DNA of 38,241 nt, taken from Planctomycetaceae bacterium (GTDB lineage: Bacteria; Planctomycetota; Planctomycetia; Pirellulales; Pirellulaceae). The notes below the pieces were generated by a model. That model did no database searches. It saw only the letters and a list, made by a program, of their open reading frames with translations, and had not been told where the DNA came from. The stretch lies in NCBI GenBank assembly GCA_002862205.1, contig PKCN01000373.1:1-38241 (forward strand), written 5' to 3'. Both the position numbers and the translations under genes were made by a program. This document shows positions 1,788 through 30,115 of this stretch, piece by piece. Numbering within the stretch: position 1 is the stretch's first letter; every line of letters begins with the position of its first letter.

Positions 1788-1817
1788 ATTGATCCATTTC
1801 AATTGAAATGGATCAAT
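1788..1817. terminator. 30-bp perfect palindrome between convergent genes (putative bidirectional terminator)
   Basis: Positions 1788-1802 are the exact reverse complement of 1803-1817, centred on CAATTG, so either strand can fold a stem of 13 or more base pairs. It lies 25 bp after the lipoprotein stop and contains the TGA stop of the convergent kinase gene (1813-1815). There is no U-run on either side, so a classical intrinsic terminator is not proven. Confidence 0.55.
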
Positions 1818-4227
1818 CCGTGGGAGCCGACCATTGATTGCCCCATTCTGAAAATAGGTCGTGCAGCATGGCTCGCCAATGTGCAGTGGTGCGAGATTGG
1901 GGATACGGTTGTGGCGGAACTGCTTTGTCAGCCACCCAGACAACCTCAAATTGTCCATCGGGCTGCACTTTTCCGATTCTTGGTGTTTGATAAGTGTGTT
2001 GTGTGGTGGGATCGATACGAAGACGGCCTGCGGCTGCGTCGATGCGCTGGTTCAGTATCGCACGACGAATTGCGATGGGATCATCGCTTTGTGCCTGTTC
2101 AACGGCTTGGGCCCACAGTTTGAAACCAAAGTAGGCTGCCGCCATGGGATCGGTGAACACGCGGTGAGGCCCAAATTCCTCATGGAAATCAGCCAGCAAC
2201 CTTTTATTCATGGGTGAGTCGATACTTTGAAAGTACGACCATGCTGCAAAATCATTGGTCATTCCCCTGCTGTTCATGAACCGCAGTTCTTCTTCACCAA
2301 TGCTGAAAGAGATTGTTTCAATTCCATCAAGGGCTTTGTTGCTTCGCAATTGGTTGAAGAATGTGGTGTTGCTGGCTCCGTTGATGCAGTTGAGGATCAC
2401 GTCCGGTTTGGTTTTTTCGATTTGAGAAATCGCCGATTTGAAATCAGCTGTTCCAAGCGGAGCAAACACCTCCCCCACGATTTCACCTCCCAGTTCCTTG
2501 ACCTGGTCAGTGATGATTTCATTTGCGATTCTGGGAAAGACGTAGTCTGAGCCTACCAGAAAGAACTTTCTGGCTTTCTGGGTTTCAAAGGCCCATTTAA
2601 CAGCTGGCAGAATCTGTTGATTGGGTGCTGCGCCCAAGTAAACGATGTTGGGTGATTCTTCGATCCCCTCGTATTGCACTGGGTAGATCAACAGATTGTT
2701 TTGTTCTTCGAAAAGAGGGGCAACTGTTTTGCGACTGGCTGATGTCCAGCATCCAAAGACAGTGCAGACTTTGTAGTCCAGCAGCAGCGTTTCCGCTTGG
2801 GCCGCAAACGTTGGCCAGTCGGATTTGCCGTCCAGGATGATGTATTCCACTCGCCTGCCCAGCAGGCCACCGGCTTGATTGGTTTGATTGATCGCCAGTC
2901 GCAATGCATCAACCACAGGTGATTCGCTTTGGGCCATTGTCCCTGTCATCGAGTGCAGGATTCCGACTCGAATGGGGTCACCGGTGAAGACCGGGGGATC
3001 GATGGTGGGTATGACTGGTGGCCCGGTTGATGACGTTTTTCCAATTTCAGGATTGTTTTGGCTGCTGTTGCGATCGTTACCGCTGTTCCACCAAAGTAGG
3101 GCAGCCAGAAAGGCAAGGATGACGAGGCCGCCACCGGCGATGAGTGTAGTTGGGATCGTTTGCTTGGAACGCGCAGCGTCCATCCTTGCGACCGACACCT
3201 CGTTGCCTGGGTCGTGTTGGTGTTGAATCGCGGTGGCGGTTCGTGGGTCAGGAGCATCTTTCGTCTGCTCCCGGTACAGTACCAAGAGATCCGCCTTCAT
3301 TTCCTCCATGGTCGAGTAGCGGTCCACGGGGGCTTTGGCCATCGCCTTGGAGATGATTTGTACGCAGGCTTCAGGTAAATCGTCACGCAACTCCGTCGGG
3401 TCAGGTGATTGGTCATTGCAGTGAGCAAACATCACCTGCATGATGCTTTCCCGTTGGTGATACGGAGCTTTACCCGTCAGCAGGGTGTAGTAGGTTGCTC
3501 CCAGCGAGTAGATGTCACTGGTCCCCTCGACTGTTTCAGATTGGCACTGCTCAGGACTCATGTACGCTGGGGTCCCGATGATCTGACCAGTTCTGGTCAT
3601 CGAGAGAGCATCGTCGCCAGTTGGCTTGGCAAGCCCGAAGTCCGAGACTTTGACCGCTCCCTCGTCCGTCAGCAAGAGATTACCTGGTTTGATGTCTCGG
3701 TGGACAAGGCCACGGCGATGAGCCGATGAAAGCCCAAGGCAAGCCTCCATGATGATTCGCGTTGCTTCTGTGACGTCGTAACGCCCTTGCTTCTTAAGGG
3801 CATCAGAGACGCTGCCGCCGAGCAAGAGTTCCATTGCCAGATAATGCGTCGATTTGTACTCGCCAATCTCATAGATTGTGACAATGTTCGGGTGATTGCT
3901 TTTCGCCGCGCTTCGGGCCTCGACCTGAAATCGCTTCAAAGAGCTGACACTATCACCAAGGTCAGGAGGCAAAAGCTTGATTGCGACTGGTCGGTCGATC
4001 GATCCGTCGACGCCTTTGAGCACAATCCCCATCCCGCCCTCACCGAGAAAACCGGTGATGCGATACTTGCCGAGCGTTTTTCCTAGCCACTCCGACGGGT
4101 CTTGCTTTCCAGCAGGCGCAGCAGTCAACTCGGCATCAATTCTCTGCGTCGAAAACGACTCGGAACTGTTGACGCCGTGGGTGACGTGTTGCGACTCTCG
4201 CAGCTCATCTTCACCGTTACGGTTCAT
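1813..4227 (-). CDS. Transmembrane Ser/Thr protein kinase with UrtA-like periplasmic binding domain
   Basis: An 804-residue receptor-like kinase. After about 54 polar residues comes a complete Hanks-type kinase domain (about 55-320): glycine loop GEGGMG (62-67), VAIK with Lys 84, HRDIKPGN (176-183), DFG (196-198) and GTPAYMSPE (218-226). One membrane span follows (about 359-380), then a linker, and from about 419 to 775 a type-1 periplasmic binding fold. That part closely follows the urea ABC-transporter binding protein UrtA: VGILHSMTGTMA, DGKSDWPTFA, VFGCWTSASRK, YPVQYEG, GAAPNQQ, GSDYVFPR. The kinase should be cytoplasmic and the sensor external. No urea transporter or urease gene lies in the window, so the domain probably acts as a ligand sensor. 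The ATG start has a weak Shine-Dalgarno site. Domain order is seen directly; urea or a short amide as ligand is inferred. Confidence 0.95.
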   Translation of the reverse strand: MNRNGEDELRESQHVTHGVNSSESFSTQRIDAELTAAPAGKQDPSEWLGKTLGKYRITGFLGEGGMGIVLKGVDGSIDRPVAIKLLPPDLGDSVSSLKRFQVEARSAAKSNHPNIVTIYEIGEYKSTHYLAMELLLGGSVSDALKKQGRYDVTEATRIIMEACLGLSSAHRRGLVHRDIKPGNLLLTDEGAVKVSDFGLAKPTGDDALSMTRTGQIIGTPAYMSPEQCQSETVEGTSDIYSLGATYYTLLTGKAPYHQRESIMQVMFAHCNDQSPDPTELRDDLPEACVQIISKAMAKAPVDRYSTMEEMKADLLVLYREQTKDAPDPRTATAIQHQHDPGNEVSVARMDAARSKQTIPTTLIAGGGLVILAFLAALLWWNSGNDRNSSQNNPEIGKTSSTGPPVIPTIDPPVFTGDPIRVGILHSMTGTMAQSESPVVDALRLAINQTNQAGGLLGRRVEYIILDGKSDWPTFAAQAETLLLDYKVCTVFGCWTSASRKTVAPLFEEQNNLLIYPVQYEGIEESPNIVYLGAAPNQQILPAVKWAFETQKARKFFLVGSDYVFPRIANEIITDQVKELGGEIVGEVFAPLGTADFKSAISQIEKTKPDVILNCINGASNTTFFNQLRSNKALDGIETISFSIGEEELRFMNSRGMTNDFAAWSYFQSIDSPMNKRLLADFHEEFGPHRVFTDPMAAAYFGFKLWAQAVEQAQSDDPIAIRRAILNQRIDAAAGRLRIDPTTQHTYQTPRIGKVQPDGQFEVVWVADKAVPPQPYPQSRTTAHWRAMLHDLFSEWGNQWSAPTD

Positions 4228-10527: not shown

Positions 10528-10549
10528 TGTGGGTTAACGGGAAAAATTG

Positions 10550-13500
10550 ATGTCCGAGAACGAAGAGCAATCGACCAAGGACCGCGCAAGAAAAATTGCG
10601 TTGGCGATGATAGCGGATTCGAGTTCTGGGGAAAGTGTTTCTGTTGATGATGTGCTGAAAGAACATCCCGATATTGCCGTTGAATTGAAACGGCAACTCA
10701 AATTGATCGGCTTGGTCAATGTAGTTACGCAGGAGCATGAAACACGGCGAGAGGCAGAGCGAGAAATCGTCGAAGCCCAAAGTGAATTGGACACGACTCG
10801 TGTTCTTGGTCTTGTCGACACAGGTGCCCCGCTGGATGACGATCCAACGCTGATACCGTGTCCAAATTGTCGACAGCGACTTCCGCAGGTGGAGTTTTCC
10901 GAAGAGGAGACCTCACGTAAAGTCGCCTGTTTGCATTGCGGAAATTCAGTTCTGCTGCTGAATAATCGCAAGGGTTTGAAGGTGGGATCGATGGTGTCCC
11001 ACTTCAAACTCGTGTCACGCTTGGGGGCTGGGTCGTTCGGATTGGTTTGGAAAGCACGCGATACGAGGTTGCAGCGTGACGTCGCGCTAAAAGTCCCTCG
11101 TCGTGGTTTATTGACAATCAATCAACAGGAGTTGTTTCTGCGCGAAGCGCGTGTTGCTGCTGCGATTCGTCACCCCTATGTGGTTGCCATTCATGATACA
11201 GGCGTCGACCATGGAACCGTGTATATATGCAGCGAATTAATCGATGGCAAGACGCTTTCGCAGTGGCGTTTTGAGTCATGCGATTCGCCACGTACCGCTG
11301 TTACGATGATGCGGAAAATTGCTCTCGCAATCGAGGCGATTCATGACAGTTCTGTCATTCATCGTGATTTGAAACCCAGCAATGTGATGGTCGACCAGAA
11401 TGGTGACCCTCAGGTAATGGATTTTGGATTAGCCAAGCAGGATGTGTTTGAAGCGACCATGACCTTGAGTGGCGAAATGTTGGGAACTCCAGCCTACATG
11501 TCCCCTGAAGCGGCCAGCGGTAAGTCGCGCTCCTCTGACCCTCGCACCGATATCTATTCAATCGGGGTGATCCTCTACGAGTTCTTGACAGATGAGTTGC
11601 CATTTCATGGGGAGGTTACACAGCTGGCGCAGCAGATCTTGCATGCGAAGCCTCGTTCTCCGCGTGAGATCAATCCGGCAGTGCATCGTGAACTTGAAAC
11701 GATTTGTTTGAAGTGTCTCGAAAAGGAGCCTGACGACCGTTACCAGAGTGCTCGAGAGCTTGCAGAGGATTTGGAACGGTTTGAGGAAGGAATTTCCATC
11801 GTAGCTCGTCCTATGTCCCTGCCCAGACGAATCCTGCGAGCCAGTCAGGCACGACCTGCGTTGTCGCTTTCTCTTGTCAGTCTGGCTGCGGTCCTGATGC
11901 TGTTGATCGGGGTAACGACGCAAATGTACATGGGGGAGAATTCTCAGTCTGACAATGATGCGCAAGCACAGAAGGAGCGTGACGATGCGGACCAGGCCTT
12001 GCGGAAAAAAAATGAGGAAGCAAGGATCCAGTCTGAATTGAAAAAGCTGTCTGACCAAACTGTTCCACTGGTGGAGTTGGCGAAAGTTGACCCAGTGAAA
12101 TGCCTGCAGCAGGCAACAGAAGCGGTGCAAGGACTCAATGCGTTGGATTTGCCATCCAACGAGGATGCGAAAGAGAGGGGTAAGTTGCTGGCCACGTTGC
12201 AACAGATTTTGGGTGACGCTTTGCAGCGAGTGGTTCCAAATGCGACTGAATCATGGGGTGAAATCATTGGTTCATCACAGGCGCAACGGGGGACGAATGT
12301 AGGTGTCCTTTCTGTTGGTGAAAGCTATGATCAGCAAAGACCCTATGAATTCAAGGTCATCGACATGGAGGTAGAAAAATCGGTTGGTGGACCGAAGCTG
12401 ACGTTAGGCAGGTGCAGGATTAGAACACCTGTTAATCAATTTGAAATGAATGAAGATGGGAGTCTTCTGCTTGGGTTTGTTCGTGATTCGGAAGATCCCA
12501 AAGCGGCGGCAGCAACAAGCCTTTGGGATCAAAGCCGTTCCTCAAAATCCTTGAAAATTCCTCGGGCAGTGAAGCAATGTTGTTTTCCTGTCTGGTCTGA
12601 AGATGTCTGGATTTTGGATAATCAGGGGCAAGTTTCCTGTTGGAGTTCTGACAGAAGTCCCAATGATTACGCAACTCACAATTTTGATGTGGAATTTGAC
12701 GCGCCGATAAAAGATTTTTTCCCTTTAGCAGGCAGTGGTGAATTCGCAATGTCATTGGATGATGGGATCTATGCCGTTCGCATAGACATCGATCATCAGA
12801 AACTACAGGAAATATGGCTGGCTGAATCCGCAGCCCGTCTTGTTCCGTTGGTTCCCGGGACTTCACAGCAGGGATTGGATGCGGGTGTGAATCGTGTCTG
12901 TTACTGGCATCGTGACAGCAAGCGTTTGATGTTCGAAATCTGGGAAGCAGACCAGCGGATTGATAAACGGAGAGCTCGGGATGTGTATCTTCCTGAGGTG
13001 GATGATGTTGAAACGTGTTTCGTTGGCGGGCGAGGTGATTGGGTTTGTGCGAGTGTGCGAATCAGGGGAGATACGGAGTGGAAATTCATCGATCTGGCTG
13101 AGCGAGGCAGGATCGTGGAAGCAATCAAAATTAATGGAAACCCGCGAAATGGAATTCGTATTCAGGCAGAGGGGAAGGACATTGCCGTAGCCAGTGACAA
13201 GACAGTCTTTCACTATCGCATTGAAAAGGGACGGCCGATTGCTTGCGGTAACTTTTCACAGGACAGTTCCAAGGTGGGAGCATTTAGCTGGCTCGGTAAT
13301 CAGCTGAACCTTGCGGTAGCGTTTGGAAGTGAAATCCATTTTTGGGATGCGGGCTCAGAAGTACCGCCAAATTTGAGTGACCATCAGCGTGTGGAAGATT
13401 CTTCTGGACAGGGCAACGTACTCTGTTCCTTTGGCAAATCAATTGAGTCGCTTTACAGCAACACCAAAGGCAATCTGCTCGTATCGCTGGATGAATCGGG

Positions 13501-14884
13501 TGCAATATCCTACTGGAGGCTTGGCGATGTTGCGATTGACGTTTATTGGAGACAGAATTTCCAACCACCCGCAATGGGCACGCAAAACGTGCAGATCGTT
13601 GACAACGGAAAGGGGGTGGCGGTGCTGGATAAATTATCGGGATTTTGTATGTACTCGAGTGTCCCCTCTGCGCCAGCGAGGGGGAATTGGGATGCGTGGG
13701 AATATGCAGGTCAGCAAAGTCGAGAGCGAGATGTCTCTGGTTTTATACTGCAGGGATCTGTTCTCGTGTTAAACAGCAAAAAAAACAACACGAGGGTTTA
13801 TCTAACCAGAGGACACAACAAGGAAATCTTAAGGGAGTTTTCGATCAAAGCAGACGAGGCTTTGGTCAGTGTGGATGAGCGTTGGCTCTGTTTGCGAAAG
13901 GCATCAACACTTCATCTAGTCGACTTGCGGAACGTTCGGGATGCTCCCTGGGTCATTCAGGGCGTTGACGCCACCTCGCAGTTCAGTTTCATTGGAAGCG
14001 GACACTGCGTTGCCGCTATTGGTGTCGATCGAATTTTGAGGGTGTGGGATCCTGTGAAGCTAAAGGAGGAAAAATTCGAGTTGCCATCGCTTGTGTCGAA
14101 ACGGGACATGATGATCAACAGCAACCGGGAAACCATTTTTCCAACCGATGACGGGCGTGTATTTCTGTTGCGTCAAACAGCGGACGGTGGCTACATGAAA
14201 GCCGGCTATGTCCAAGTGGGGAAAATGAATAATGAGATGACATTGGTACCGAGTCAGGATGGCGAAGCTTGGGCAAGCATAAGCGTCCCACCTTGGAATG
14301 CGAATGCGAGGTGGAATGGTGCCGCCGTTAAACTGGGGCGTTTTGCAAGAGTATCGGTTCAAGGCGGGCATAGTGGGAACGCTTGGGGATACTTGAATAC
14401 CAAAGACCTGGACGAACCATCTGAACAACTGGAAAATCCCAAGCGCGATCGCATCACTGATGCAGCCAGGAACGCCATGGTGATCAGTCCTGACAAGCAA
14501 TGGTTGGTGCGCAGCAGTCGTGCGGGATTTGACACATGGAAGCTTTCCACTGGAAAAATCCTGACAAATTCCGCTCAAAGCGGGGCCAGCGATCCAGCGA
14601 CTCAGTTGGTCTTTTCACCAGATGGAAAATATTTGGCTTCCGGGCACGAAAGCGGCAGGGTTCGCTTCTGGAGTATCGTGGGAGATACGTTGATTCTTTC
14701 AACACCGATCGAATGGAATGTTCATTCATCCCCTATCGAATCGATCGTGATGGATTCTGAGTCGTGTTGGTGTTTTTGTACAAGTGCCGATCAGATTTCA
14801 TGTGTTCCCATGGATCTCGACATTCTCGTGAAGATGGCAGGTTGGGAACTGAAGAAAACAAGGAGAGGTACCCGTCAACGTTAG
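10550..14884 (+). CDS. Large transmembrane Ser/Thr kinase with zinc ribbon and propeller-like C-terminal region
   Basis: A 1444-residue protein from the ATG at 10550; a TTG three bases earlier is less likely. A helical N-terminal segment (1-90) is followed by a zinc ribbon, CPNC (104-107) and CLHC (127-130). The Hanks kinase domain (about 152-415) has GAGSFG (159-164), ALK with Lys 181, HRDLKPSN (271-278), DFG (291-293) and GTPAYMSPE (312-320). A membrane span (about 437-457) and a Glu/Lys-rich coiled coil (about 466-500) precede about 900 residues of low-conservation repeats. Only a few match the WD-like pattern, for example LVFSPDGKYLASG...VRFW near 1375. The last part is probably one or two beta-propellers on the outer side. 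Such kinases are common in planctomycetes; the target and ligand are unknown. The start has a weak Shine-Dalgarno site. Confidence 0.93.
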   Translation: MSENEEQSTKDRARKIALAMIADSSSGESVSVDDVLKEHPDIAVELKRQLKLIGLVNVVTQEHETRREAEREIVEAQSELDTTRVLGLVDTGAPLDDDPTLIPCPNCRQRLPQVEFSEEETSRKVACLHCGNSVLLLNNRKGLKVGSMVSHFKLVSRLGAGSFGLVWKARDTRLQRDVALKVPRRGLLTINQQELFLREARVAAAIRHPYVVAIHDTGVDHGTVYICSELIDGKTLSQWRFESCDSPRTAVTMMRKIALAIEAIHDSSVIHRDLKPSNVMVDQNGDPQVMDFGLAKQDVFEATMTLSGEMLGTPAYMSPEAASGKSRSSDPRTDIYSIGVILYEFLTDELPFHGEVTQLAQQILHAKPRSPREINPAVHRELETICLKCLEKEPDDRYQSARELAEDLERFEEGISIVARPMSLPRRILRASQARPALSLSLVSLAAVLMLLIGVTTQMYMGENSQSDNDAQAQKERDDADQALRKKNEEARIQSELKKLSDQTVPLVELAKVDPVKCLQQATEAVQGLNALDLPSNEDAKERGKLLATLQQILGDALQRVVPNATESWGEIIGSSQAQRGTNVGVLSVGESYDQQRPYEFKVIDMEVEKSVGGPKLTLGRCRIRTPVNQFEMNEDGSLLLGFVRDSEDPKAAAATSLWDQSRSSKSLKIPRAVKQCCFPVWSEDVWILDNQGQVSCWSSDRSPNDYATHNFDVEFDAPIKDFFPLAGSGEFAMSLDDGIYAVRIDIDHQKLQEIWLAESAARLVPLVPGTSQQGLDAGVNRVCYWHRDSKRLMFEIWEADQRIDKRRARDVYLPEVDDVETCFVGGRGDWVCASVRIRGDTEWKFIDLAERGRIVEAIKINGNPRNGIRIQAEGKDIAVASDKTVFHYRIEKGRPIACGNFSQDSSKVGAFSWLGNQLNLAVAFGSEIHFWDAGSEVPPNLSDHQRVEDSSGQGNVLCSFGKSIESLYSNTKGNLLVSLDESGAISYWRLGDVAIDVYWRQNFQPPAMGTQNVQIVDNGKGVAVLDKLSGFCMYSSVPSAPARGNWDAWEYAGQQSRERDVSGFILQGSVLVLNSKKNNTRVYLTRGHNKEILREFSIKADEALVSVDERWLCLRKASTLHLVDLRNVRDAPWVIQGVDATSQFSFIGSGHCVAAIGVDRILRVWDPVKLKEEKFELPSLVSKRDMMINSNRETIFPTDDGRVFLLRQTADGGYMKAGYVQVGKMNNEMTLVPSQDGEAWASISVPPWNANARWNGAAVKLGRFARVSVQGGHSGNAWGYLNTKDLDEPSEQLENPKRDRITDAARNAMVISPDKQWLVRSSRAGFDTWKLSTGKILTNSAQSGASDPATQLVFSPDGKYLASGHESGRVRFWSIVGDTLILSTPIEWNVHSSPIESIVMDSESCWCFCTSADQISCVPMDLDILVKMAGWELKKTRRGTRQR

Positions 14885-27889: not shown

Positions 27890-30115
27890 TTATCTTTTTT
27901 GTTGACTGTAGATGGGCGGTGTCCAATTTTTGGGAACGCGACCTTGAGGCCGGACTCCTTTAGCATCATCTGAAATGGGGTGCTCCGCCGCGCTTTGCAG
28001 CGGTAGATCGTCGGGCAGATTTTTGAGCTCAAAATCTTTGTACTGGATGGTCATCGCTGGCCCGACATGTACCTGAACTGCCAACACACCTTCCAGTTTT
28101 CGACCGCTTTCATCCAAGTCAATGACGTCAATGGTTTTGGTTCCATCGATCCAGTGCTGGTGATGGTTGCCTTTCACAAGCACACGGTATTCGTGCCACT
28201 GATCGGCAGCGGCAACGGGAGGTTGCCAGGTATCGACGATCCAGCCTTGTCCTTGGGAGTCAATGATCACTTTGTTACCAGTGCGAGCAAGAATACGTCG
28301 GCCCTTCTCTTCGTAAAGCATGCCGTTGTACTGGGGGTTGTTTGCCACGACATCACATTGATACCCCGTGACCACATCGAGTCCAAGATCGGGTCGGGAA
28401 GTACCACGATACTGGATGCCACTGTTTCCGCCCGCGGTTACTTTTACTTTGACGCGAAGATCAAAGTTGCGAATGGTTGACCCCTTCCATGTCAAAAATC
28501 GATTCATCTTCAGCGAGCCATCTGTGGTTCCGGTGATGGCTCCATCCTTGACAGACCAATATTTCGGATCGCCTGCCCATTGGCGAAGGTTTTTGCCGTC
28601 GAAAACTTTCATGAAACCTTCGTCATTGACCCTTCCCACGTTGTTGGCCGAAGCGGTGGGTGTTGGGTCCGTTGAGCGATTGAAGCCTGCGATTGGGTCC
28701 AGCGGACCACCGTATTCATTCACTTGTTGGGTTGTTCGTTGTCGCATGGCATCGAGTACGCCGGCATAAACGGGGTCGTCAGCCAGATTGGTCAATTCGT
28801 CAGGGTCATTCTTCAGGTCGTGAAGGAATTCATGATTCTCATGATCAAAATATCGAACGTACTTGTAGTTCTCGTTCCGTAGTCCTTCAAAGGCTGGAAT
28901 GCGATTGCGAACGGCGAAGTGCTCGTGGAATGTTTCGTTTCGCCAGTTTTCAATCTGTTCGCCATTCACAATGGGTTTGAGGCTCAAGCCTTGATATCGC
29001 TCGGGGATCTCGATCCCTGCCCAATCAAGAAATGTTGCGGGCAGGTCAAGGTTCAGCGCGGTGGCGCGGGTCACCTGCCCACGCTTGGTCGGTTTGACAC
29101 GCGGGTCATGAATGATCAGTGGAACGCGAAGTGATTCTTCAAAGTGCGACCACTTGCCAGCCAATCCGCGGTTGCCCATGTGGTAACCATTGTCGGCTGA
29201 ATAGACAATGATTGTGTTTTCGGCCAAACCGGCGTCTTTGAGTGCTTGCATGAAACGCCCAATTGCACCATCAATCCCACTGACCATGCGGTAATAGGAT
29301 CGCACGTTGGTTTGATATTTCTGTTCGGTGTTCCAACGCCAGAAGAAGCGTTCACGGTTGATCGTGGTCTTCAGGAAATCAGGCAGAGCATAAAAGATTC
29401 CCGGGTCGTTCAGGCGTGGTGGGGAAATGACAACATCGTCGTACATTCCGTCCACCGCTCGTGGCCAAGGAAAATGTCCGATGCCGGGTCTGCGATCACT
29501 GTCCTCCGCATGGCACGCATTGAACCACATGTTCAACGCGAATGGCTTGTCTTTGGGCTGCGACTCAATGAACTTGATCCCGCGGTCCACAATCACTTCC
29601 GTTTCGTGTCGTAAGCTCCCATCGGGCTGTTTCTTGTAAAAAGGATTGCGACCAATCGCTTCGAATTCGTCAAAGTGGTCTTCACGTTTGTATTTGCGAG
29701 GCATCTTGGCATGCCATTTTCCAAAGTATCCGGTGCGATAACCATTCTGTCTCAGAATGTCGCTGTACAACGTTTGAACTGCTTCGGGTGTCGCTGTATC
29801 CGGGTTGCTTGATGTGCCAAAACTGCGGCCGGTCAAGCCACTGAGGATCGTGGTTCGGCTGACCCAGCAGATTGAATGGCTCACGCACGCGTTGTCGAAT
29901 CTCGTTCCTGCTCTCGCCAATGCGTCAATGTTCGGTGTTTGGACGACAGGGTTTCCGTAACAGCCAAGCGTACTGGTGGTTTGATCATCGGTGAAGAAAA
30001 ACACAATGTTGGGTGGACCCGCTGAGTCTGTTTCAGCAGCAGAGGCGTCGCCCGCACACAGCAGGCCACCGAGCAGTAAAAACATTACAGAACAGATTCG
30101 AAGATTCCAACGCAT
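27890..30115 (-). CDS. Secreted sulfatase fused to a DUF1080 domain, atypical active-site motif
   Basis: A 741-residue exported protein with a signal peptide (about 1-27). The S1 sulfatase part (about 34-490) has NIVFFFTDDQ with metal ligands Asp 43 and Asp 44, the formylglycine site ICWVSRTTILSGLTGR with Cys 83, GKWHAK (132-137), and YSADNG with Asp 308 and Asn 309, then Lys 321. The usual site is C-x-P-S-R; here the Pro is Val (C-W-V-S-R). Cys and Arg remain, so activation to formylglycine is possible but not certain. About residues 515-725 form a DUF1080 (3-keto-disaccharide hydrolase or LamG-like) domain: FDGKNLRQW, WSVKDGAITG, GNSGIQYRG, GYQCDV, WHEYRVLVKG, HWIDG. The pair probably desulfates and binds or cuts one glycan. 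No Shine-Dalgarno site is evident. Confidence 0.93.
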   Translation of the reverse strand: MRWNLRICSVMFLLLGGLLCAGDASAAETDSAGPPNIVFFFTDDQTTSTLGCYGNPVVQTPNIDALARAGTRFDNACVSHSICWVSRTTILSGLTGRSFGTSSNPDTATPEAVQTLYSDILRQNGYRTGYFGKWHAKMPRKYKREDHFDEFEAIGRNPFYKKQPDGSLRHETEVIVDRGIKFIESQPKDKPFALNMWFNACHAEDSDRRPGIGHFPWPRAVDGMYDDVVISPPRLNDPGIFYALPDFLKTTINRERFFWRWNTEQKYQTNVRSYYRMVSGIDGAIGRFMQALKDAGLAENTIIVYSADNGYHMGNRGLAGKWSHFEESLRVPLIIHDPRVKPTKRGQVTRATALNLDLPATFLDWAGIEIPERYQGLSLKPIVNGEQIENWRNETFHEHFAVRNRIPAFEGLRNENYKYVRYFDHENHEFLHDLKNDPDELTNLADDPVYAGVLDAMRQRTTQQVNEYGGPLDPIAGFNRSTDPTPTASANNVGRVNDEGFMKVFDGKNLRQWAGDPKYWSVKDGAITGTTDGSLKMNRFLTWKGSTIRNFDLRVKVKVTAGGNSGIQYRGTSRPDLGLDVVTGYQCDVVANNPQYNGMLYEEKGRRILARTGNKVIIDSQGQGWIVDTWQPPVAAADQWHEYRVLVKGNHHQHWIDGTKTIDVIDLDESGRKLEGVLAVQVHVGPAMTIQYKDFELKNLPDDLPLQSAAEHPISDDAKGVRPQGRVPKNWTPPIYSQQKR

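Follow-up and report, generated by a model that had tools for sequence, protein, structure and literature searches.

A receptor-like Ser/Thr kinase with a UrtA-type outer domain in a planctomycete, and the sensory family around it

A solute-binding protein related to UrtA, joined in one chain to a protein kinase, raises the question of what such a chain senses and whether it exists at all. We analyzed a gene of this kind in a Planctomycetaceae bacterium (assembly GCA_002862205.1, contig PKCN01000373.1), in a stretch of 38,241 nucleotides that is referred to below in its entirety as the window. The gene, at the start of the window (Table 1), is a genuine receptor-like kinase, its outer domain is closest to solved urea-binding proteins and keeps every residue of the UrtA urea pocket, and it is no isolated case, being a branch of a broader family that looks sensory.

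Architecture and recurrence of the receptor kinase

An earlier note, made from the sequence without database searches, had described the protein as a full Hanks-type kinase with one membrane span and an external domain of UrtA type, and this anatomy was borne out in all three parts by profile matches and a hydropathy scan (Table 1). The gene lies on the minus strand, which the note had left unstated, and a linker separates the kinase from the span. The features that define Hanks-type kinases, namely the Lys/Glu pair, the HRD loop and the DFG motif, are all present in the kinase of the window, and Lys84, Glu103, His176-Arg177-Asp178, Asn183, Asp196 and Gly198 are invariant in an alignment of 20 fusions. 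Because the catalytic residues are invariant, the kinase looks active. The membrane span (mean Kyte-Doolittle value 2.28) is the sole hydrophobic span of the protein.

One explanation for such a composite protein is that an error of annotation or assembly joined two genes, but nothing was found in its favor, recurrence ruled it out, and we give it practically no credence. The full architecture was found in a named contig (L027), in a protein of 801 aa whose outer domain is 80% identical to that of the window, and the kinase and outer domain share one open frame in 45 Planctomycetota loci, the window included (a first set of 22, with the window among them, and a later set of 23). A hydropathy scan of the first set found a span in 20 of its 22 fusions (the exceptions are L080 and L091).

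Among 99 relatives, the fusion is held by 16 genomes including the host, with one copy cut by a contig end. In 297 genomes of the order, 36 contained a total of 41 frames of at least 770 aa with a match extending to query position 385 or beyond, a count made by eye in which one frame holds a stop and the kinase was checked in part of the frames. Five fusions stem from another order of the same class. Of 72,556 plasmid records, 1083 matched, and none of these covered 80% of the protein. A contig scan with six short patterns confirmed L027 only; phyla beyond Planctomycetota were not searched, and the fusion may thus be spread more widely.

Table 1. Features of the receptor kinase gene, with positions in the window.
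Feature	Residues	Positions	Strand	Basis or remark
Whole gene, receptor-like Ser/Thr kinase with UrtA-type outer domain		1813..4227	minus	804 aa, ATG start, single open reading frame
Hanks-type protein kinase domain	56-311	3295..4062	minus	Pfam PF00069 (Pkinase), E 3.5e-48
HRD catalytic loop	176-178	3694..3702	minus	Invariant in 20/20 aligned fusions
DFG motif	196-198	3634..3642	minus	Asp and Gly invariant, Phe nearly so, in 20 fusions
Single membrane span	360-378	3094..3150	minus	Hydropathy scan; Arg/Lys on the kinase side
Outer UrtA-type ligand-binding domain	419-779	1891..2973	minus	Peripla_BP_5 (PF13433), E 1.1e-138
C-terminal Trp-rich tail	779-799	1831..1893	minus	R-x4-W-x(9-11)-W-x(3-4)-W; mark of the sensory clade

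The outer domain and its urea pocket

The NCBIfam model urea_ABC_UrtA (TIGR03407) matched the outer domain nearly end to end, over residues 419-775. The nearest solved structures by sequence were 8tg1 (384 bits), then the UrtA entries 7s6f, 7s6e and 8hic (∼324 bits), with AmiC at 164 bits. An AlphaFold2 model of the domain, the best of five built from an 11-sequence input, reached a mean predicted local distance difference test score (pLDDT) of 81.8 and a predicted template modeling score (pTM) of 0.83 (the remaining four scored 61.5 to 76.7; an earlier prediction from two sequences was poor, with a mean pLDDT of 47.6, and was not used). Foldseek ranked 8tg1 first for this model, followed by 8hic, 7s6f and 7s6e and then by AmiC (1pea, 1qo0). 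The title of 8tg1 names a periplasmic urea-binding protein of Caldicellulosiruptor, and those of 8hic, 7s6f and 7s6e name UrtA complexes with urea and calcium. The outer domain is therefore closest to solved urea-binding proteins by sequence and by predicted fold, and a better match to another ligand class, a possibility raised in the earlier note, was found by neither route.

Nine residues near urea are named for UrtA (8hic) in the portion of its paper available to us, which also reports that mutating some of these residues abolished or cut urea binding, and which gives 0.14 micromolar for the binding of urea by UrtA (PMC10392092). When these positions were mapped by alignment, the window was found to keep all nine (W494, S496, Y515, Q518, E520, Y562, F564, N616 and S642), so that the loss of pocket residues that had been considered possible at the outset did not occur. 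Overall, the window domain and 8hic are identical at 164 of 360 positions, and identity at nine of nine pocket positions has a hypergeometric probability of 7.5e-4. Across the 22 fusions of the first set, the pocket columns are 90% identical to UrtA, compared with 43.5% across all columns, and no random nine-column set matched the pocket identity of these fusions (0 of 20,000); in the same test on eight amide-linked or AmiC rows, 1832 of 20,000 sets did as well as the pocket. The full nine-residue pocket is present in 32 of the 45 fusions (16 of 22 in the first set and 16 of 23 in the later set). As a reference, all nine residues occur in five of five planctomycete UrtAs encoded beside urtB-type and ABC transporter genes, three of which are also beside urease (for L102 and L103 the urtB type of the neighbor was assigned by clustering with the others). 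In contrast, the Gln144/Asn246 pair is absent from all eight amide-linked or AmiC rows, one of which retains the Gln, and the window, with Gln and Asn both present, does not have the amide-type pocket of AmiC and FmdD. Urea as the ligand of the outer domain is a strong prediction from this pocket.

The window domain can be compared with two known proteins of this fold. With UrtA of the UrtABCDE importer (8hic, 7s6e, 7s6f; 8tg1) it shares the fold, 44-48% identity in fold alignments and all nine pocket residues; UrtA, however, is a free, secreted protein encoded beside urtBCDE, whereas the window domain is the outer half of a protein that continues into a membrane span and a kinase, carries the Trp-rich tail and belongs to a separate clade. 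With AmiC, the amide receptor of the Pseudomonas amidase operon, it shares the use of the fold for signaling and not for transport, although in AmiC the positions of the pocket Gln and Asn are occupied by Pro and Val. AmiC is not membrane-bound and acts with AmiR, an antiterminator.

A sensory clade with kinases of several lineages

In a tree of 67 rows from which the tail columns had been removed, the 34 sensory rows formed one clade (support 100/99) that stands apart from the transporter UrtAs, AmiC, the amide-linked proteins and three fusions to hybrid histidine kinases; the window domain thus does not fall among the transporter UrtAs. The members of this clade that are not fused to a kinase have characteristic neighbors. 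All 11 loci examined first have, downstream and on the same strand, a gene with a dCache match: a chemoreceptor with HAMP and MCP domains in L066, L067, L068, L069, L074 and L075 (with CheR, CheW, CheA and CheB after the pair in L067, 3468-12853), a histidine kinase in L070, L071, L073 and L076, and in L072 a short dCache open reading frame, after which come response regulators and a PAS histidine kinase. In the later set, a chemoreceptor gene with MCP, HAMP and dCache matches is downstream in 17 of 17 loci. The reference UrtAs (L098-L100, L102 and L103) are instead followed by urtB-type genes. Because the non-fused members examined adjoin dCache-type chemoreceptors or histidine-kinase systems in all 28 loci, the clade looks sensory, and we conclude that a sensory role, which the earlier note had preferred to transport, is well supported by gene context in related genomes.

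The clade is also marked by the Trp-rich tail. The strict tail pattern was found in 34 of 34 sensory-clade rows and in none of 20 other full-length rows (three PDB rows were left out of this count as pieces cut at the alignment end), and in none of 15 transport-like loci. In the later set of 40 loci, which were chosen, once the rules had been fixed, from matches running to the tail region, 36 have the strict pattern and the other 4 a slightly altered one; since tail-reaching matches were used to pick the loci, this tail count is not independent, unlike the kinase, the pocket and the downstream gene. All 23 long frames of this set contain the kinase, and its 17 short frames are those with the downstream chemoreceptor gene. 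The tail may have a role in docking or pairing.

A single origin of the 22 fused kinases of the first set was rejected (approximately unbiased test, p-value 1e-33). In a sample of 43 kinases they fall into four lineages, and at least four lineages have thus contributed fused kinases. The outer domains of the 22 fusions, in comparison, all lie to the same side of one branch (92/91, not starred). Kinases of several lineages joined to outer domains that group together suggest either a single sensor module whose kinase was exchanged or repeated fusion of closely related sensors. A kinase of the window lineage in L114 (1378-3918, minus strand, genome G091) is joined to a Peripla_BP_6 outer domain, which suggests that this kinase has itself swapped binding-protein sensors, and L113 has a kinase of the window lineage with WD40-type propeller repeats.

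Several neighboring arrangements were observed along the way. N-terminal UrtA-like domains are fused to hybrid histidine kinases in L095 (7686-10526), L096 (4639-7848) and L104 (2616-5453); no membrane span was found in these three proteins, all nine urea-pocket residues are kept, and they are possible cytoplasmic urea sensors. Near the UrtA-like/histidine kinase pair of L071 (6008-7258) is a response regulator fused to an adenylate/guanylate cyclase domain. The transport-type UrtA operon of L102 (266-8383) adjoins a gene in which an ammonium transporter is fused to a P-II domain, and that of L103 adjoins a related gene; a bestrophin-like gene directly precedes a UrtA-like protein outside the sensory clade in L101 (4978-7260) and L024 (580-2682). 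Elsewhere in the window are a second Hanks kinase of a different lineage (10547-14884, plus strand; 1445 aa) with C-terminal WD40-type repeats, and a sulfatase joined to a 3-keto-disaccharide hydrolase domain (27890-30115, minus strand).

Ligand, mechanism and biological meaning

We consider it probable that the protein acts as a receptor Ser/Thr kinase with a single span and that its outer clamshell branched off from the urea-binding family as a sensor, with urea as its most likely ligand. Urea would enter the cleft and be held by Ser496, Gln518, Tyr562 and Asn616, with Trp494 positioning Asn616. The two lobes would then close, and closure would alter the pairing of two receptor chains outside the membrane, perhaps with the assistance of the Trp-rich tail; the single span would relay this change, so that two kinase domains could phosphorylate each other's activation loop and afterwards cytoplasmic target proteins.

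A number of observations weigh against this reading. The TIGR03407 match scores 442.6 bits, under the curated cut-off of 492.75, so that the window domain resembles UrtA without qualifying as one, and modeling of the tail end is poor (pLDDT <50 at model residues 379-390). The dCache matches downstream of the non-fused members exceed the Pfam cut-off in just 12 of 28 loci (7 of 11 and 5 of 17). Pocket type and gene context sometimes disagree, as in L112 (5875-7107, a Methylobacterium plasmid), where an annotated urtA beside urease has an amide-type pocket and no adjacent urtBCDE; this annotation may be wrong. The neighborhood comparison revealed no conserved partner gene pointing to an output: the gene neighbors (a DTW-domain gene, an acetylesterase-like gene and others) are common to two same-genus genomes only, and none of the scanned neighbors is nitrogen-related.

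Two further points concern urea itself. The pocket is altered in 13 of 45 fusions (6 of 22 and 7 of 23), and Ala replaces Gln144 in 21 of 24 chemoreceptor-linked rows; in the later set, 16 of 17 such rows combine this Ala with Val, Pro or Thr for Asn246. These changes indicate that the clade as a whole is not urea-specific, and with Ala at Gln144 most chemoreceptor-linked members probably bind another ligand. The urea pocket set is kept in three chemoreceptor-linked rows (L066, L074 and L197, the last with all nine residues), and all five rows beside histidine-kinase systems keep the Gln and the Asn. Altered-pocket proteins stand directly upstream of a dCache-type MCP in L067, L068, L069, L075 and L181-L196; in L066 and L197, both with the full urea pocket, the chemoreceptor also has a PAS domain, the gene behind L197 encoding a dCache-HAMP-PAS-MCP chemoreceptor by Pfam. 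The other point is the host, whose genome (98.7% complete) contains no urease alpha, arginase-family or formamidase match and no UrtB or allophanate hydrolase above cut-off (urea channels, DUR3 and urea carboxylase were not searched). Within the families searched, the host has no recognized urea metabolism, which leaves the benefit of sensing urea unexplained. Since urease, UrtB, allophanate hydrolase, ureohydrolase and formamidase were not found in the host above cut-off, the earlier note's term "nitrogen-compound receptor", taken in the sense of nitrogen nutrition, is unsupported. In the remaining genomes that carry the fusion, the urease profile gave one weak partial match, in G056 (23.4 bits), and matches to the formamidase family occur in G073, G078 and G094. 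Among the 99 relatives, genomes with urease or UrtB did not overlap with the 16 fusion genomes, a result that counts merely as absence given a Fisher p-value of 0.59.

The chief rival takes up these last points and holds that the receptor kinase is as described but that its physiological ligand is a close analogue of urea that forms the same pattern of hydrogen bonds and that the host produces or comes across, such as a small ureide, guanidine or a short amide. A host without a urea-handling gene of the searched families and sister receptors that have probably changed ligand would fit this explanation, and the accessible portion of the UrtA paper makes no mention of acetamide, thiourea or guanidine (PMC10392092). 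We nevertheless think it rather unlikely, because the pocket is identical to that of UrtA throughout, including the residues whose mutation hurt urea binding, and because most fusions keep the full set. A different proposal, that the outer domain is a docking or anchoring module, for instance for a dCache partner receptor, with the kinase controlled in some other way, draws on the dCache-type receptors that adjoin the non-fused relatives, which make a protein partner conceivable, and on the conservation of a tail outside the pocket. It appears improbable: a domain used for docking only would not need a pocket kept far above background, and the pockets of the sisters have changed in a manner that is not random. 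The fold and pocket of UrtA type could also mean that the protein is a membrane-tethered UrtA feeding an ABC importer whose uptake the kinase would report or regulate. Of the 99 relatives, however, only 5 have UrtB above cut-off, and these include neither the host nor any fusion carrier; the single PF13433 match of the host is the window kinase itself; and the domain's clade lies apart from the transporter UrtAs. We regard this explanation as very improbable.

The gross architecture, a kinase plus a binding-protein domain, is not unseen, since public databases contain entries under the name "bifunctional serine/threonine-protein kinase / ABC transporter substrate-binding protein"; these names reflect domain content, and the entries are not known to carry an assigned ligand or function. 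The nearest functional precedent in the literature is the GlnH-GlnX-PknG system of Corynebacterium, where, according to the part of the source available, control of a Ser/Thr kinase by a periplasmic binding protein runs through a separate membrane protein (PMC9769921). Both systems have a binding protein that governs a Ser/Thr kinase across the membrane, but there three proteins and an SBP_bac_3-type sensor do what the window gene would do with one chain and a UrtA-type sensor. The PASTA-type transmembrane kinases (PknB, PrkC), for which the available text of a review reports ligand-induced pairing, likewise consist of a kinase, one span and an outer ligand domain, although PASTA repeats sense cell-wall fragments (PMC6213207). 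The window protein scored 298.1 bits with the PASTA kinase model NF033483 (cut-off 450) and had no PASTA match. The same portion of the review describes PASTA and propeller sensors and no binding-protein sensor (PMC6213207), and, as far as the excerpts extend, a 2006 paper includes PBP-I domains in its general list of outer sensor domains (PMC1592074) and a 2010 paper describes UrtA-like clusters beside amidase genes (PMC3098086). In the open-licence PMC literature searched, we found no description of a UrtA-type receptor kinase, nor of the urea pocket, the sensory clade, the tail or the retuned sisters in this setting. New here are the recurrence of the fusion, the sensory clade apart from transporter UrtAs, the Trp-rich tail as its mark and the kinases of at least four lineages.

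Few bacterial Ser/Thr kinases, to our knowledge, have a known outside ligand. The kinase examples in the accessible text of the review sense cell-wall fragments (PMC6213207); the family described here offers a predicted small-molecule ligand, with the altered-pocket sisters as natural controls. The same binding-protein module is found as a neighbor or a part of importers, chemoreceptors, histidine-kinase systems and Ser/Thr kinases, which makes the step from transport to signaling accessible to study. As a tentative proposal, which we hold to be possible but not the likelier outcome, Planctomycetota may possess a modular urea-sensing family in which a UrtA-derived domain, with a tail of its own for docking or pairing, has been combined with histidine kinases, chemoreceptors and Ser/Thr kinases from at least four lineages, and through which bacteria without urea metabolism would read urea as an environmental signal (for example of animals or grazers), most chemoreceptor-linked sisters having been retuned to another small ligand by changes at the same two positions of the pocket. 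Urea sensing in organisms without recognized urea metabolism would, if true, be unexpected. If urea is the ligand, the cell may read it as a cue; otherwise the ligand may be a close analogue.

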